Part shown: piece after piece, positions 9,565 through 61,582 of the stretch | Numbering within the stretch: position 1 is the stretch's first letter | Layout of the letters: each line of letters begins with the position of its first letter | DNA from: Priestia megaterium NBRC 15308 = ATCC 14581 | GTDB taxonomy: Bacteria; Bacillota; Bacilli; Bacillales; Bacillaceae_H | Assembly: GCF_000832985.1 (NCBI RefSeq) | Contig: NZ_CP009920.1 | Coordinates: 3,528,501 to 3,592,500, forward strand | Reading direction: 5' to 3' | DNA length: 64,000 bases | Notes under the pieces: generated by a model | The model's database searches: none | What the model was told of the DNA's origin: nothing | What the model saw: the letters and a program-made list of their open reading frames with translations, nothing else | Position numbers and translations under genes: made by a program

Positions 9565-9620
9565 CGAGTATCAAGGTAGTATCGCAAGAACTTCACTTGA
9601 TACTCGTTTGTTTATTTTTA
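9565..9620 (+). terminator. Terminator after birA
   Basis: CGAGTATCAAG (9565-9575) and CTTGATACTCG (9596-9606) are perfect reverse complements around a 20-base loop, followed by TTTGTTTATTTTT. It probably ends the ypjD-to-birA transcript. A TATAAT at 9558-9563 sits just upstream of the hairpin, so an attenuator of a short transcript is possible. Confidence 0.7.
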
Positions 9621-9639
9621 ATACGACAATAAATCTGCC

Positions 9640-9806
9640 TTGATCCATTAAGGACTAGGACAGAGGGATGACGCATAGGTAAGCACATTAGGTAAAGTGT
9701 GCTTTTTATAGATGAAGTCTGTCAAAGTCCTTCTTCCTTTTATAGGTAGAAGGGCTTTTTGTGTGCAGACGTGCGCTCATCTCCTCTGAGAAGGAGGAGA
9801 AAGTTA
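9640..9806 (+). promoter_or_regulatory. panBCD leader with competing hairpins
   Basis: The gap before panB holds a chain of structures. AAGGACT (9650-9656) can pair with AGTCCTT (9726-9732). That second arm also belongs to a terminator-like hairpin, AAAGTCCTTCT (9724-9734) with AGAAGGGCTTTTT (9748-9760). A separate hairpin AAGCACA/TGTGCTT spans 9681-9704. CTCCT and AGGAG around 9781-9796 may hide the panB ribosome binding site. The mutually exclusive pairings suggest an attenuator. The short 'pan' RNA motif is known upstream of Firmicute panB genes, but I cannot confirm a match. Confidence 0.45.
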
Positions 9807-33118: not shown

Positions 33119-33290
33119 AACTCTTATCCAGAGTGGCGGAGGGACTGGCCCTGCGATGCCCGGCAACCATCAAATGAAACATTCATTTGAACGGTGCTAA
33201 TTCCTGTGGAACATCAGTATTGTTCTAACAGATGAGAGAAATCGTGTATAAACGAACACTCTTCCATCTGTGAAGAGTGTTTTTTATTTT
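33119..33290 (+). ncRNA. SAM-I (S-box) riboswitch with terminator
   Basis: Classic S-box: CTCTTATCCAGAGTGGCGGA, GGGACTGGCCCTGCGATGCC CGGCAACC, GGTGCTAATTCCTG and the closing GATGAGAG (33231-33238). An intrinsic terminator AACACTCTTC / GAAGAGTGTTTTTT spans 33255-33290. When SAM is bound, transcription should stop before metI; when SAM is low the methionine genes are expressed. Confidence 0.96.
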
Positions 33291-48735: not shown

Positions 48736-49143
48736 TTATCAATAACGTTCGGGTAATTGCTGCATCACATATGAGGATGTAGAGGAAAGTCCATGCTCGC
48801 ACAGACTGCGATGTCTGTAGTGTTCGTGCCTAGCGAAGTCATAAGCTAGGGTAGCTGTTAAAAGCTAACGGCGGGGAAAAAGCCTAAGTCTTTTTAAGAT
48901 ATGGCTTGACTACTCTGAAAGTGCCACAGTGACGAAGTCTTATCAGAAATGGTAAGAGTGGAACGAGGTAAACCCCTCGAGCGAGAAACCCAAATAATGG
49001 TAGGGGAACTTTCTGGAAGGAACTGAACGGAAGGAAGGACAAAATGGTTACATTTTGTAGATAGATAATTGCCACCGGAGTACGAGGTAGCTAGCCGCTT
49101 GCAGTACAATGGTACAAAACATGGCTTACAGAACGTTATTGAA
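48736..49143 (+). ncRNA. rnpB: RNase P RNA, bacterial class B
   Basis: The catalytic subunit of RNase P, maturing tRNA 5' ends. Helix P1 is TCAATAACGTTC (48739-48750) with GAACGTTATTGA (49131-49142). Universal elements GAGGAAAGTCCATGCTCGCA, GTGCCACAGTGACGAAGTC, GGTAAACCCCTCGAGCGAGA and ACAAAACATGGCTTACAGAA are in the B. subtilis order. Location after gpsB is conserved. Confidence 0.97.
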
Positions 49144-56930: not shown

Positions 56931-57743
56931 CTATTTTAATGCCCCAGATGTCATTCCTGAAATGAAATGCTTTTGCAAAAACACGTACGCAATCAATAAT
57001 GGGATAGAAGAAAGAACGACTGCTGAAAACAGCATAGGGTAATTAGTCAGAAATTCCCCTTGAAAGTCCAATAGTGCAATAGGCAGCGTTTTTACTTCTT
57101 TAGATTTTAACAATAGCAAAGGGAATAACAGATCATTCCACACAATCACAAACGAAAAAATTCCTACTGTAGCCATTGATGGTATTGAGAGTCGAAGAGC
57201 GATTTTTGAATATATTTTCCACTCTGACGCTCCGTCCATGCGAGCAGCTTCGAATAGTTCCCTTGGCAAAGTTTTCATAAAACCCGTGATAATAAACACA
57301 CCGATGGGAAGCAAAAAACTTATAGAGACGATAATGACGCCTGTTAGCGTATTGACGAGTCCAAGCTTATTCATCAGCAAAAAGACAGGAATCATATTGA
57401 CTTGAGTAGGGACAATCATTCCGCAAACAAAAAAGCCGTATACAATCCAGCCAAGCTTTTGAGGTAGTTGAATAATAGCATAAGCAATCATGCTTGAAAA
57501 CCATAGAATAAAAAACGTGCTAAAGACGGTAACAATCACGCTGTTTTTAATATAGCCAAAGATGGGTTCATTGACGAGCAGCTGTTTATAATTTTCAATA
57601 TTCCAGCCTGCTGGTAATCCGATTGGGTTGCTGTAAAGTTCAGGCGTTGTTTTAAAGGTTGTTAATAAAACCAAGCTTAAGGGCAACAGAATGATCAAAC
57701 CGTATATCCCTAAAATCAGTTGTCTGAATGGGTTTTGTTTCAT
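56931..57743 (-). CDS. CUT1 sugar ABC transporter permease (MalG type)
   Basis: 270-residue inner-membrane permease with six transmembrane helices and the EAA loop EAARMDGASEWKIYSKIALRL that docks on the ATPase. It is last in the four-gene operon. AAAAGGAGATTCTTTT precedes the ATG. The substrate is unknown because there is no adjacent sugar enzyme. Confidence 0.9.
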   Translation of the reverse strand: MKQNPFRQLILGIYGLIILLPLSLVLLTTFKTTPELYSNPIGLPAGWNIENYKQLLVNEPIFGYIKNSVIVTVFSTFFILWFSSMIAYAIIQLPQKLGWIVYGFFVCGMIVPTQVNMIPVFLLMNKLGLVNTLTGVIIVSISFLLPIGVFIITGFMKTLPRELFEAARMDGASEWKIYSKIALRLSIPSMATVGIFSFVIVWNDLLFPLLLLKSKEVKTLPIALLDFQGEFLTNYPMLFSAVVLSSIPLLIAYVFLQKHFISGMTSGALK

Positions 57744-57757
57744 AAAAGAATCTCCTT

Positions 57758-58711
57758 TTACATTTTGGTCAAGCGAAGTACGCGAAATTGAAGAAACGTT
57801 AAAAGAGCAATTACAATCATAAATACAACTGAAATGGCAGAGGCATAGCCGAAACGAAAATTAATAAAAGCTTCGTGATAAAGAAGTGTCGAAAGAATTT
57901 CAGTTGAGTTGGAGGGACCTCCATTTGTCATTGCAATGATTAAATCAAATGCTTTAAAACTTTGTATGGTCGTATAAGCTACAACCATTGTCGTAGCTGG
58001 AGCTAAAAGAGGCCACGTAATGCGCTTGAATTTTTGCCATCGTGTTGCTCCATCAATACTAGCAGCTTCATATAACTCACTGGGAATAGCTTGAATTCCA
58101 GCTACAAAAATAATAAGCATTTGACCAGTATGTGCCCAAAATTGTACAAAAGCCAAGCTGTAAATTGCGATATGTCCATTTCCAATCCAAGACTGGGTCC
58201 AATGCTCAAGGCCTATTTTACTTAAAAACAGGTTAACTCCTCCAATGTTGGGGTCATACATAAAGTTCCACGTGAAGGCAATCGATACGGACGAAATAAT
58301 CGTCGGTACAAAAAAGAGTGAGCGATAAAATGTATTCCATGCAGAATTTTTATAAAGTAAAAGTGCAAATCCCAAGCTCAATAAAGTTTGAAAGATCAGC
58401 ACGCCAATTGTGAATTTTAAGTTGTTTGTAAGAGACTGTGTAAAAATAGCATCGTTTGTTAAAATTTCTTTGAAGTTTTGAAACCCTACAAATGAGAACT
58501 GAGAAGACAATCCATTCCAATCAGTTGTGCTTAAAAATAAAGCAGAAAGCGTTGGCAATGCAAAGAAAACAGTATATATGATAAAGCCGGGAAGTAAAAA
58601 CAACCATAGATGTCGGCTTTTAGAGATACTTTTAAATGAAAAGAGAGGAAAAGAGAACGAAGGGGTTCTCTTTTCTTCTTCTTGAATAGACGTATTAGTT
58701 TTTAGCGACAC
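57758..58711 (-). CDS. CUT1 sugar ABC transporter permease (MalF type)
   Basis: 317 residues with six transmembrane helices and an EAA loop EAASIDGATRWQKFKRITWPLL. The start is GTG 58711, lying inside the end of the binding-protein gene (17-base overlap), with AAGGAGAGG as ribosome binding site. It pairs with the MalG-type permease next downstream. Confidence 0.9.
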   Translation of the reverse strand: MSLKTNTSIQEEEKRTPSFSFPLFSFKSISKSRHLWLFLLPGFIIYTVFFALPTLSALFLSTTDWNGLSSQFSFVGFQNFKEILTNDAIFTQSLTNNLKFTIGVLIFQTLLSLGFALLLYKNSAWNTFYRSLFFVPTIISSVSIAFTWNFMYDPNIGGVNLFLSKIGLEHWTQSWIGNGHIAIYSLAFVQFWAHTGQMLIIFVAGIQAIPSELYEAASIDGATRWQKFKRITWPLLAPATTMVVAYTTIQSFKAFDLIIAMTNGGPSNSTEILSTLLYHEAFINFRFGYASAISVVFMIVIALLTFLQFRVLRLTKM

Positions 58712-59942
58712 GTTCTACCTCTCCTTGTGCTTTTTCAGCAGCTTTTTTCGCTGACATACCGGATAGTACGTCCTGTACAGATGTTTCAACAGCTTTTGAT
58801 ACGCGCTCATTTAAAATTGTAAATCGAGGTTGGAAGACCGTTTTTTTGCCTTTCCATTTTGCGCTTTCTTTGAGTTCAGGTGAATTATATTTCACGTCTT
58901 TGACCGTTAATAACTGGCCAGTAGCATTCGCATACTCAGAAGAAATCTTTGGATCTGCAAGGAAAGTTAAAAATTTCTTAGCAGCTTCTTTGTGTTTTGA
59001 TTTTTCAGCAACACCTAATAAGAATGTCGTGGTATGAACACCTTCGTATTTTGCTTTATCTTGATCCACTGTAATCGGTGCAAGCAAACCTTGATCAATC
59101 TTCGGATTTTGCTGTTTGACTGTAGCCATCATATAAGAACCTTGAGCAAGCATTGCGCCTTTTTCCTGAGCAAAAAGTGCTGCAGCACTTTCTTTTTTCG
59201 TACCAAGAGCATCTTTTTGGAAGTAACCTTTGTCATTTAATTCTTTAATTTGGGATAGGGTTTTGATAAACCATTCATCAGTTAGCTTGCGCTTGCCCGT
59301 TTCTACTTCGTGAAGGGCGTTGTTTGTAGGTTCGTTATTCATAATCATTGGATTAATAAATTGAGAAGGACTTACGTCTCCTGAAAATAAAATCGGCGTG
59401 TATCCATTTTTCTTTAATGTTTCAGATGTTTTTAAAAAGCTATTCCAATCTTTAGGAACATCTAAATTTAATTTTTCAAAAATGCCTTTGTTATAGACAG
59501 GGATGTTATAGACTAGCTGATAAGGAAGAGCATATTGCGTATTATCCGCTTTCCCCGCTTGGATTAGCTTTTCGTCAAATTTGCTGAGTAAGTTTTGGTC
59601 GTCCAACTTTGCAAAACCGTTTGCTTTGCGAATCGTTTCAAATTGACTTCCTGGAAAACTAGCAAATACATCGATACCTTCTCCAGATAGTAGAGATCCT
59701 TGAATTTGTGATTGATAGGAATCAGAAGGAAAGACGGTCATTTCTACATGAATATTTGGATTTTTCTTTTCAAATTGCTCAATGATAGAATCAAAAGCTT
59801 TCGAATCTTCTCCTCGCCAATGCGTAAAGTTAATGGTTACTTTTTTAGAAGAGTCGCTGCTGTCGCCGCTTGTTGAACTGTTTTTGCCGCAGCCTGCGAT
59901 GATCACGGTGAGCATTGCTAACAGAATTAATAATTTTTTCAT
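58695..59942 (-). CDS. Extracellular sugar-binding lipoprotein
   Basis: 415-residue family 1 solute-binding protein. Lipobox VIIAGC (Cys18), Ser/Asp linker, then VTINFTHWRGEDSKAFDSII and YALPYQLVYNIPVYNKGIF typical of oligosaccharide binders. ATG 59942 follows GGGGGAACTAAA. The sugar cannot be told by reading. Confidence 0.9.
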   Translation of the reverse strand: MKKLLILLAMLTVIIAGCGKNSSTSGDSSDSSKKVTINFTHWRGEDSKAFDSIIEQFEKKNPNIHVEMTVFPSDSYQSQIQGSLLSGEGIDVFASFPGSQFETIRKANGFAKLDDQNLLSKFDEKLIQAGKADNTQYALPYQLVYNIPVYNKGIFEKLNLDVPKDWNSFLKTSETLKKNGYTPILFSGDVSPSQFINPMIMNNEPTNNALHEVETGKRKLTDEWFIKTLSQIKELNDKGYFQKDALGTKKESAAALFAQEKGAMLAQGSYMMATVKQQNPKIDQGLLAPITVDQDKAKYEGVHTTTFLLGVAEKSKHKEAAKKFLTFLADPKISSEYANATGQLLTVKDVKYNSPELKESAKWKGKKTVFQPRFTILNERVSKAVETSVQDVLSGMSAKKAAEKAQGEVERVAKN

Positions 59943-59978
59943 TTTAGTTCCCCCACTTATAGAATTCATTTTAGATAG

Positions 59979-61070
59979 TTATTGGTCAATTTTGATACGG
60001 TTGGTAGATGCCTGGTCAAAGAAATGAGCATGATTCATTTGAAAATGAAATGGAAAGTGCTGATAAACTTGAATATGTTCATCCCCAGGGATTTTAGCCA
60101 CAAAGAGCTGGTCTCCTAAACTACTGTATAGCATATACTCTGCTCCTAATAACTCAGACACATCTACCGGTAATGAAATATGAGGAGCATCAGAAGAGGC
60201 CCGCGTAATATGCTCAGGTCGAATTCCTATAGTAACGAACTGATTGTTGTAGCCTTTTTCATGTAACGAATGCATTTGATTTTCTGTCAGTTGAAACTCA
60301 TGTTCACTGATGTGCAGTTTGTTGTTCACTACTTTTCCTGTGAAAAAGTTCATTCCCGGTGATCCTATAAAACTAGCTACAAACGTATTCTCTGGAGCAT
60401 TATATATTTGCATAGGTGAACCTATTTGCTGAATTTTTCCATCTTTCATAACTACAATTCTGCTTGCCATCGTCATCGCTTCTGTTTGATCGTGGGTTAC
60501 ATAAATAATGGTCGTCTGCAACCTCTGATGAAGCTTACTAATTTCAGCTCGCATTTGTACGCGAAGCTTGGCATCAAGGTTAGATAAAGGCTCATCCATT
60601 AAAAAAATTTGGGCATTCCGTACAATGGCTCTTCCTAAAGCCACCCGCTGACGCTGCCCTCCTGATAACGCTTTTGGCTTGCGTTTTAAATAGGGTTCTA
60701 AGTCCAAAATACGAGCCGCTTCTCGAACGCGCTCATCAATTTCTTGTTTTGGGACTTTGCAGAGCTGCAAGCCAAATGCCATGTTGTCGTAAACTGTTAA
60801 ATGAGGGTAAAGCGCGTAGTTTTGAAACACCATTGCAATATCTCGGTCCTTAGAAGGTAAATCGTTTGCACGATCTCCATTAATAAGCAATTCTCCTTCT
60901 GTTATCGATTCAAGGCCGGCGATCATTCGAAGGGTAGTGGATTTGCCGCACCCTGAAGGGCCTACAAATACAATAAATTCTTTGTCTTGAATATGAAGAT
61001 TGAAATTATCAACTGCAAGACTATCTTTTCGGTATTTTTTATACACATGCTGTAACTGCAGTTCTGCCAT
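59979..61070 (-). CDS. CUT1 ABC transporter ATPase (UgpC/MsmX type)
   Basis: 363 residues. Walker A GPSGCGKST, Q-loop VFQNYALYP, LSGGQRQRVALGRAIV signature, Walker B IFLMDEPLSNLDA, H-loop VTHDQTEAMT; the C-terminal OB-fold regulatory region (about 240-363) follows. It is the first gene of the operon, which is unusual since many Bacillus sugar systems share one MsmX ATPase encoded elsewhere. AAAGGAGAAAAA precedes the ATG. Confidence 0.92.
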   Translation of the reverse strand: MAELQLQHVYKKYRKDSLAVDNFNLHIQDKEFIVFVGPSGCGKSTTLRMIAGLESITEGELLINGDRANDLPSKDRDIAMVFQNYALYPHLTVYDNMAFGLQLCKVPKQEIDERVREAARILDLEPYLKRKPKALSGGQRQRVALGRAIVRNAQIFLMDEPLSNLDAKLRVQMRAEISKLHQRLQTTIIYVTHDQTEAMTMASRIVVMKDGKIQQIGSPMQIYNAPENTFVASFIGSPGMNFFTGKVVNNKLHISEHEFQLTENQMHSLHEKGYNNQFVTIGIRPEHITRASSDAPHISLPVDVSELLGAEYMLYSSLGDQLFVAKIPGDEHIQVYQHFPFHFQMNHAHFFDQASTNRIKIDQ

Positions 61071-61086
61071 TTTTTCTCCTTTCAGC

Positions 61087-61178
61087 AGGCTTTTAAAAAA
61101 ATAAAAGCCTCTAATTGCACAGACGGTTTGTACGTGTATCTGGCAATTAGAGGCTATCGGTTGACCGGTAAGCCTGTA
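61087..61178 (-). promoter_or_regulatory. Four-segment attenuator-like leader of the sugar ABC operon
   Basis: Read on the minus strand, four complementary segments occur in order. Segment 1 AGGCT (61171-61175), then 2 AGCCTCTAATTGC (61143-61155), 3 GCAATTAGAGGCT (61106-61118), and 4 TAAAAGCCT (61087-61095). Pairing 2:3 gives a 13-base-pair stem followed by TTTATTTTTTT, a terminator. Pairing 1:2 (enclosing CGGT-CA-ACCG) and 3:4 (AGGCTTTTA / TAAAAGCCT) excludes it. Possible promoter: TTACAG-17-TACATA just upstream. Confidence 0.6.
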
Positions 61179-61402
61179 TTATGTAGTTTTGAGTGATTGA
61201 ATCTGTAAGTAATTTTAAAATATATTATTCCTATATGTCAAGTGAGAATTAAGATATTTTAATAAGTTCGATTATTTTCTTAAATGAAAGAAGCCACTTA
61301 TTAAGCTAGAGATGCTGGTTTTGAGAATAAAACAAACAGCTGGTGTGTAGAATGATAGTATTCACTTTTATAGTAAGCACTACAGAGAGAGGATGTTTAT
61401 AA
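61179..61402. other. Divergent intergenic region
   Basis: About 220 bases between the sugar operon leader and a small gene. AT-rich, with a weak promoter for the minus-strand operon near 61180-61215; nothing else recognised. Confidence 0.35.
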
Positions 61403-61582
61403 ATGGATAGAAACACGGAGTTCACTATGATTCGTCAAGCGTTGGAAAACAGCTATCATTTAATGCAGCAGGGAATAGAAGTAAGCGGAGAAACGCTTAC
61501 TCAGCTGGAACAAGCAAAAGCCGAGTATGAAGCGGCCTTTTTATTGTCTCAGTCCACGGACTCAAAATTCCGCTGTAATTAA
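61403..61582 (+). CDS. Small helical protein of unknown function (59 aa)
   Basis: MDRNTEFTMIRQALENSYHLMQ... to DSKFRCN, 59 residues, two predicted helices with a Gln/Glu-rich middle. GAGAGAGGATGTTTATAA precedes the ATG. Size and helical hairpin recall Spo0E-like or SinI-like small regulators, but the Spo0E SQELD motif is absent. No assignment. Confidence 0.6.
   Translation: MDRNTEFTMIRQALENSYHLMQQGIEVSGETLTQLEQAKAEYEAAFLLSQSTDSKFRCN

Follow-up and report, generated by a model that had tools for sequence, protein, structure and literature searches.

The RNA controls familiar from the sulfur pathway of Priestia, which the NCBI taxonomy places in the class Bacilli, and of related bacteria are SAM riboswitches and T-boxes. 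Attenuation by a hairpin and an overlapping terminator is also known, and in the bgl operon of E. coli an antitermination element of this sort is found on either side of the regulator gene. The element described here is absent from Rfam 15. Candidate attenuators of bacilli were reported by Naville and Gautheret in 2010 (PMC2965389), including an 'ABC-leader' before an alkanesulfonate transporter, a sulfonate-linked element, and 'fabH-leaders'. They were presented without a mechanism, a riboswitch or a protein factor being allowed for, and the accessible part of that article gives no wider family, link to YezD, or factor. It is likely that our element coincides in part with these attenuators. 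According to the accessible part of a B. methanolicus study, PyrR sites were labelled before sulfonate and methionine operons, behind SAM riboswitches, and also accompany T-boxes and a yybP-ykoY leader, which suggests that an old model picked up terminators. The PyrR label was considered for the present element and dropped, as Rfam 15 makes no such call. We conclude that the leader examined below is probably a protein-dependent transcription attenuator of a sulfur-acquisition regulon, with YezD as the most likely factor.

The leader lies on the minus strand of the window, i.e., the whole stretch of 64,000 nt that was analysed. An earlier note on this DNA had described four AGGCT/AGCCT segments, and all of them are present and exact between 61175 and 61087. 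A sigma-A promoter is predicted at 61212–61241 (−35 box TTGACA at 61241–61236, −10 box TAAAAT at 61217–61212, spacing 18, 11 of 12 consensus positions). According to this match, transcription is predicted to start near 61205; the promoter is 5′ of segment 1, and the predicted start thus precedes that segment rather than falling downstream of segment 2, a position the note had regarded as incompatible with a switch. Segment 1 (AGGCT, 61171–61175) and segment 2 (AGCCT, 61151–61155) contribute to the antiterminator hairpin 1:2, the core of the element, at 61153–61173, with AG/CU extending the pairing to 61175/61151. Segment 2 is both the 3′ arm of this hairpin and the base of the 5′ arm of the intrinsic terminator 2:3 (61106–61155), which ends in segment 3 (AGGCT, 61106–61110). 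The terminator stem has 13 perfect pairs, with further pairs above a bulge, and is followed by the T tract TTTATTTTTTT at 61095–61105. Then come segment 4 (AAAAGCCT, 61087–61094), which is specific to this operon and, once read-through has occurred, could pair with segment 3 (or 1), the ribosome-binding site AAAGGAG (61076–61082), and the ATG at 61070 with which the ATPase gene starts. The leader folds at −37.7 kcal/mol vs −18.8 (sd 3.0) for shuffled sequences (z −6.3), with none of the 200 shuffles being equally stable. The inner hairpin of the note does exist, but it is CGG-UCAA-CCG instead of CGGU-CA-ACCG, because a 2-nt loop is infeasible.

Taken alone, the terminator reaches −25.6 kcal/mol vs −8.6 for hairpin 1:2. 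This difference of about 17 kcal/mol in favour of the terminator would suit a terminator that acts constitutively, the hairpin before it being incidental and the promoter setting expression, a reading we regard as highly improbable given the behaviour of the element family described below. In prefix folds hairpin 1:2 appears first (−9.2 kcal/mol) and persists through the completed upper terminator stem; once transcription has added the final AGGCU of segment 3, the terminator displaces it (−28.8 kcal/mol). Were 1:2 held, a five-base gap would separate the terminator stem from the T tract. The exclusive pairings and prefix folds thus support the terminator/antiterminator switch that the note had placed before a CUT1 ABC operon. 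Its proposal that 3:4 pairing (−10.2 kcal/mol) forms half of the switch has to be abandoned, since segment 4 is made only after the T tract and the pair is therefore unable to decide termination. Among 148 distinct copies of the element, a segment-4-like complement is found in 8 vs 3.1 expected by shuffling, and the 5 perfect ones among these 8 all belong to leaders of the window operon. Segment 4 was consequently rejected as a family feature; with its perfect form restricted to the leaders of one operon, it is not the family's antiterminator. The 3:4 pairing may shape the read-through message beside the ribosome-binding site.

The genome of the window contains the core CGGTCAACC 17 times and its reversed control 11 times. 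Three of the 17 sites are leaders with an overlapping terminator, preceding the window operon, the ssuB-ssuA sulfonate operon, and yezD, the last with a sulfate-binding gene further downstream. A degenerate pattern matches 75 times, in 48 of the 299 order genomes, compared with 15 matches for its reversed counterpart, and the terminator overlaps the hairpin in 58 of the 72 distinct contexts. Reading frames of 150 aa or more enclose 11 of the 14 sites without a terminator and 6 of the 58 with one. Two of the 14 (L130 and L131) are probably real copies, because a sulfate-binding gene lies downstream and the model described next matches them at 33–34 bits. From the 58 contexts, L093 (a chance site by eye, left out of the model search), L096, L116, and near-duplicates were removed, which left 39 sequences; awkward alignment then excluded L006, L094, one L097 copy, L113, and L118. 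The covariance model R1 was built from the resulting seed of 34. As for L096, its copy-like match (298–377) stands before a pyruvate-dehydrogenase-type operon as judged by eye, outside the sulfur theme.

The short calibration of R1 makes its E-values rough. Of the 299 order genomes, 118 have a match at E ≤ 0.01, 91 have one at E ≤ 1e-4, and 78 have one at E ≤ 1e-6 (hereafter a strong copy), the latter spanning 24 of the 47 families of the order. At E ≤ 1e-4 the element is also present in 70 of 235 class genomes, again about 30% of the sampled genomes, and in 59 class genomes outside the order. The window's own genome has eight copies; the copy in the window scores 42 bits (E 2e-7 for its genome), although as a seed member it matches by construction. 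Tandem copies less than 130 nt apart are found in seven loci (L118, L177, L188, L195, L203, L213, and L226). One strong copy (L010:749–804, minus strand, genome G004) follows a promoter-like sequence by eye and has no evident gene downstream; it may be an orphan copy, a small RNA, or a rearranged end.

The family consensus is GCY-GA-UYRG-(4–5 nt)-CYRA-A-RGC, and its final RGC doubles as the terminator base, i.e., the last three to five bases of the hairpin are the base of the intrinsic terminator. In the seed, 96.1% of hairpin cells are paired vs 78.9% in shuffles, and 79 cells are changed on both sides vs 20.9. Pairing falls to 26–53% when the partner is shifted by one to three columns, although this control is lenient on any structure that was derived from the consensus. 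For the full terminator, the alternative pairing, the value is 95.4% vs 77.7% in shuffles. The partner of alignment column 22 is column 6 in the hairpin (34 of 34 sequences) and column 71 in the terminator (33 of 34), so that the two pairings of this base exclude each other. Another 97 rows, 92 of them distinct (the seed copies L216:536–589 and L226:2845–2895 recur among the 97), show 97.6% pairing vs 73.6% and 354 both-side changes vs 103 in shuffles, in an alignment that was fitted to R1 and is biased towards the model's structure. Most covariation measures exceed all 500 shuffles, the exception being the number of pairs with a change on both sides, which is reached by 33, 34, and 27 of the 500. 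The inner stems vary (UCGG/CCGA, UUGG/CCAA, UCAG/CUGA, UUAG/CUAA, and others), the internal loop has GA in 91 of the 97 rows with an opposite A in all 97, and the apical loop is free in sequence and length, with 4 nt in 66 rows and 5 nt in 30.

Both the hairpin and the terminator pairings therefore covary among homologous leaders, whereas the note had held that their failure to do so would speak against its proposal. Whether operated by a protein or otherwise, the attenuator itself is well supported. A terminator that is merely constitutive does not agree with an inner hairpin stem that covaries on its own account, with a terminator overlap kept in 33 of 34 seed copies, with recurrence across two dozen families in which sulfur genes are commonest downstream, or with closely spaced tandem copies.

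Compared with this consensus, the window leader is a variant copy at the conserved internal loop: it has UA/U where the family has GA/A, as well as a C·A mismatch replacing U-A. In G002, another Priestia genome, the leader of the homologous operon has 20 of the 21 hairpin bases in common with the window and a UA/A internal loop, while its terminator loop has diverged. The loop variant is thus kept between species and has not simply decayed. The variant hairpin may be bound more weakly or differently.

Downstream genes were read from copies at 163 places, among the matches listed, and 118 of 182 candidate downstream ORFs were hand-picked for a tally, so as to exclude same-genus duplicates and doubtful small ORFs. 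The tally covers first or second genes, gives raw counts not scaled to a random-gene background, and allows one protein to match several families. According to NCBIfam and Pfam, the 118 proteins include 18 sulfate-binding proteins, 16 ABC ATPases, 13 TauE/SafE proteins, 9 DUF2292 proteins, 8 NMT1-type binding proteins, 7 luciferase-like monooxygenases, 6 FMN reductases, and 3 each of Rrf2 regulators, sodium:sulfate symporters, and NIL domains. The commonest genes 3′ of the element in this tally concern sulfur acquisition, and a sugar, which the note had suggested as the likely signal, does not match such neighbours. In the window's own genome, the targets are the window operon, ssuBA, yezD, an FbpA-like gene, a sulfate-binding gene, an MFS transporter, a TauE protein, and a weakly SsuE-like reductase (under the family cut-off) with a family-3 binding protein further on.

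Several loci deserve a description of their own. L108, in the same genome, reads element, yezD, element, FbpA-like gene, element, sulfate-binding gene. At L089, L104, and L106, a fabH-like gene (ketoacyl-ACP synthase III, by eye) follows yezD/FbpA-like genes or the element, and these genes may correspond to the 'fabH-leaders' described in the accessible part of PMC2965389. The interval between element and yezD in the own genome (L060:1610–1681) holds a cysteine-rich short frame, MYLSSAHYTSTYRCCSLCLFNCN, which is near-identical in three other Priestia and is possibly a cysteine-sensing leader peptide. Two GlpP-family genes (PF04309; L064 and L065) are also present in this genome; by eye, one lies by glpF-glpK-like genes and the other immediately precedes an ABC operon that includes a glycerophosphodiesterase-like gene. 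The window leader as a GlpP target, suspected from the UgpC score of the ATPase, was set aside because the other own-genome copies precede mostly sulfur genes; none of the eight R1 copies falls in the two GlpP regions examined.

An element that precedes unrelated genes of one pathway, yezD itself among them in several genomes, behaves much like a riboswitch, and its strong structural conservation with a near-invariant internal loop points the same way. The 21-nt hairpin, perhaps together with part of the terminator loop, might accordingly bind a sulfur metabolite, with YezD being a mere member of the regulon. We consider this unlikely, as the hairpin is very small for an aptamer and its unconstrained apical loop is hard to reconcile with one; the distribution and position of yezD, given below, would also be left unexplained.

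The window operon consists of a CUT1 ABC transporter ATPase of the MalK/UgpC/MsmX type (59979–61070; NF008653, 489.7 bits vs a cut-off of 432), a solute-binding lipoprotein (58695–59969; PF01547) with relatives linked to sulfoquinovose/sulfonate genes, and two permeases (57758–58711 and 56931–57743; both PF00528), all on the minus strand. Relatives of the binding protein with 64–66% identity are found in Bacillus taeanensis and Priestia koreensis loci. The neighbours of the former are a sulfoquinovose isomerase that scores 785 bits against a cut-off of 700 and a diphosphate-dependent phosphofructokinase, and that of the latter is an SsuD-like gene whose first 60 residues match alkanesulfonate monooxygenase. 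With such neighbours of its relatives, the window operon fits the sulfur theme, and we infer that its importer probably carries sulfoquinovose or a related sulfonated sugar. In B. taeanensis, the isomerase and phosphofructokinase stand next to a CUT1 transporter (L043:8055–10627), a possible sulfoglycolysis operon. B. megaterium and B. aryabhattai are named, in the accessible part of PMC9594981, as organisms whose sulfoquinovose pathway has been investigated. The reading predicts that an apparent sugar importer of Priestia serves sulfur scavenging from sulfosugars, and it would explain how scattered sulfonate and sulfate importers could open together.

YezD is a DUF2292 protein of about 54 residues that is annotated without function, and in the own genome its gene (G000:C6:4267151–4267258) is far from the window operon. 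It is encoded in 78 of 78 strong-copy genomes vs 57 of the 221 other genomes of the order. At laxer thresholds the values are 82 of 84 (E ≤ 1e-5), 87 of 91 (1e-4), 87 of 98 (1e-3), and 89 of 118 (1e-2), and the weakest matches (1e-3 to 1e-2) have YezD in 2 of 20 genomes, as chance matches would give. Outside the order, YezD is present in 59 of 59 element genomes (E ≤ 1e-4). YezD without a detected copy is seen in the above 57 order genomes (at E ≤ 1e-6) and in 28 class-sample genomes. When labels are shuffled within families, 58.6 genomes with YezD are expected (sd 2.4), with a maximum of 69 in 20,000 shuffles, compared with the observed 78. Two genes of the regulon that served as controls, those for FbpA (59 of 78 vs 48.3) and the sulfate-binding protein Sbp (36 of 78 vs 22.8), are also above every within-family shuffle; among the three protein families compared across genomes, YezD alone has no exception in strong-copy genomes. 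All 42 strong-copy genomes without Sbp encode YezD, and a strong copy is found in none of the eight genomes with Sbp but without YezD; two genomes of this kind (G011 and G106) have weak R1 matches, among the matches listed. Since yezD is often inside regulated operons, the co-occurrence could, at least partly, reflect a shared regulon.

Ten yezD loci were given to a re-examination with filters off, one of which came from an already positive genome. Of the other nine, all from class genomes at first scored as motif-negative, seven have a copy near yezD (six at 28–31 bits and one at 19.8), and in two no copy near yezD is found. As for position, 35 of the 59 class genomes have yezD upstream of the element and on its strand, at 12–136 nt in 34 and at 1629 nt in one; in the remaining genomes it is 3′ in 4, on the other strand in 1, and far away or on another contig in 19. 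In the eight genomes of family f46 that encode YezD, yezD is divergent from a copy, among the matches listed. Two copies flank yezD at L171, at L176, and at L108 of the own genome. Of 20 class-sample loci, 10 have a SAM riboswitch 5′ of yezD on its strand; 19 other loci, each scanned with 300 nt or more of 5′ sequence, add 2, which makes 12 of 39 in total.

An element that recurs over the genome, in the presence of a YezD gene that is distant in the own genome and never missing from strong-copy genomes of the order, suggests a trans-acting factor. The eight own-genome copies and the 78 of 78 genomes with YezD thus argue against control in cis by RNA alone, which the earlier note had found plausible in view of the lack of a regulator gene next to the operon. 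For a metabolite-binding hairpin, it would be unexplained why YezD is found in all strong-copy genomes while 42 of the 78 lack Sbp, the most frequent target besides YezD, and why yezD stands directly 5′ of the element. The factor might also be another protein (CymR-CysK, a small basic protein like FbpA, or some other), YezD then having a different sulfur job; FbpA-like genes share operons with the element, and some copies precede Rrf2-type regulators (3 of 118). This seems still less probable to us than a riboswitch, as CymR is a DNA-binding protein and, of YezD, FbpA, and Sbp, only the first is without exception. FbpA itself was rejected as the factor, being absent from 19 of the 78 strong-copy genomes.

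With YezD as the preferred factor, the switch would work as follows. The small hairpin would emerge first from RNA polymerase. By default, the terminator would grow down and take the last three to five bases of the hairpin, and transcription would stop. When sulfur is short, the factor, most likely YezD, would bind the hairpin around its GA/A internal loop and hold it; the bases beside the T tract would then stay unpaired, the terminator would fail, and the operon would be read. In a good number of genomes a SAM riboswitch or a copy of the element precedes yezD itself; low SAM would then give more YezD, which in turn would open other leaders in trans. We infer RNA binding by YezD, its positive sign, and the signal from these arrangements; the sign follows by argument only, in that low SAM would raise YezD and the targets are sulfur importers, which suggests that YezD should act positively. 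The window copy, however, departs from the GA/A consensus exactly where recognition would be expected, and this counts against the YezD reading.

Regarding the protein itself, a comparison of YezD with the PDB gives four weak matches (E 0.39–1.3), all to Alba, a nucleic-acid binder. An Alba-like fold was nevertheless dropped as a candidate, as a profile search, with designed repeat proteins on top, did not reproduce the resemblance. According to the accessible part of PMC6385201, yezD deletion leaves starvation survival of B. subtilis unaffected, an outcome that does not bear on the role proposed here. In the accessible parts of the open-licence literature, no paper was found that links DUF2292 to RNA or proposes RNA binding. 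We lean, by a modest degree, towards YezD/DUF2292 being the first of new, remarkably small RNA-binding antiterminators in a riboswitch-to-antiterminator relay across Bacilli. Should YezD prove to be the factor, about 54 residues would make up an antiterminator that SAM riboswitches drive in a good number of genomes; the reading offers a directly testable function for DUF2292.

In a scan of the element with Rfam 15, no family reaches its cut-off, in agreement with the note's statement that it is no known riboswitch or PTS-type RAT site. The stretch 60900–61420 gives only three sub-threshold matches up to E 10, and in 57 distinct other loci, some without a copy, no match overlaps a located copy. 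The T-box and SAM riboswitch models have no match over the element in the window and the other loci scanned. Elsewhere in the window, Rfam reports a SAM riboswitch (33121–33238), a pan motif (9573–9667), and a class B RNase P (48745–49133).

Among described systems, the S-box (SAM-I, RF00162) resembles the element in attenuating sulfur genes in the same bacteria, but its structure is different and Rfam finds no S-box at the element. The PyrR attenuators of pyr genes (RF00515) share the combination of a hairpin and an overlapping terminator; however, RF00515 scores 17.5 bits vs a cut-off of 54 at the strong copy in L104 and gives no hit at E 10 or below in the stretch scanned in the window. The RAT of BglG/LicT/SacY is likewise a hairpin of small size; its internal loop is asymmetric, and its 3′ arm is partly shared with the 5′ arm of the intrinsic terminator. 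As in bgl, the present element flanks a putative regulator gene on both sides in some operons. In contrast to RAT, it has a different sequence and internal loop, a putative factor that is a DUF2292 protein of about 54 aa, and sulfur genes in place of PTS sugars, and the Rfam bglG element (RF03530) gives only a partial match of 12.7 bits vs 80 (E 9.5, L104). We regard the leader as a case of RAT-like antitermination in which the RNA element is new and the protein probably so.
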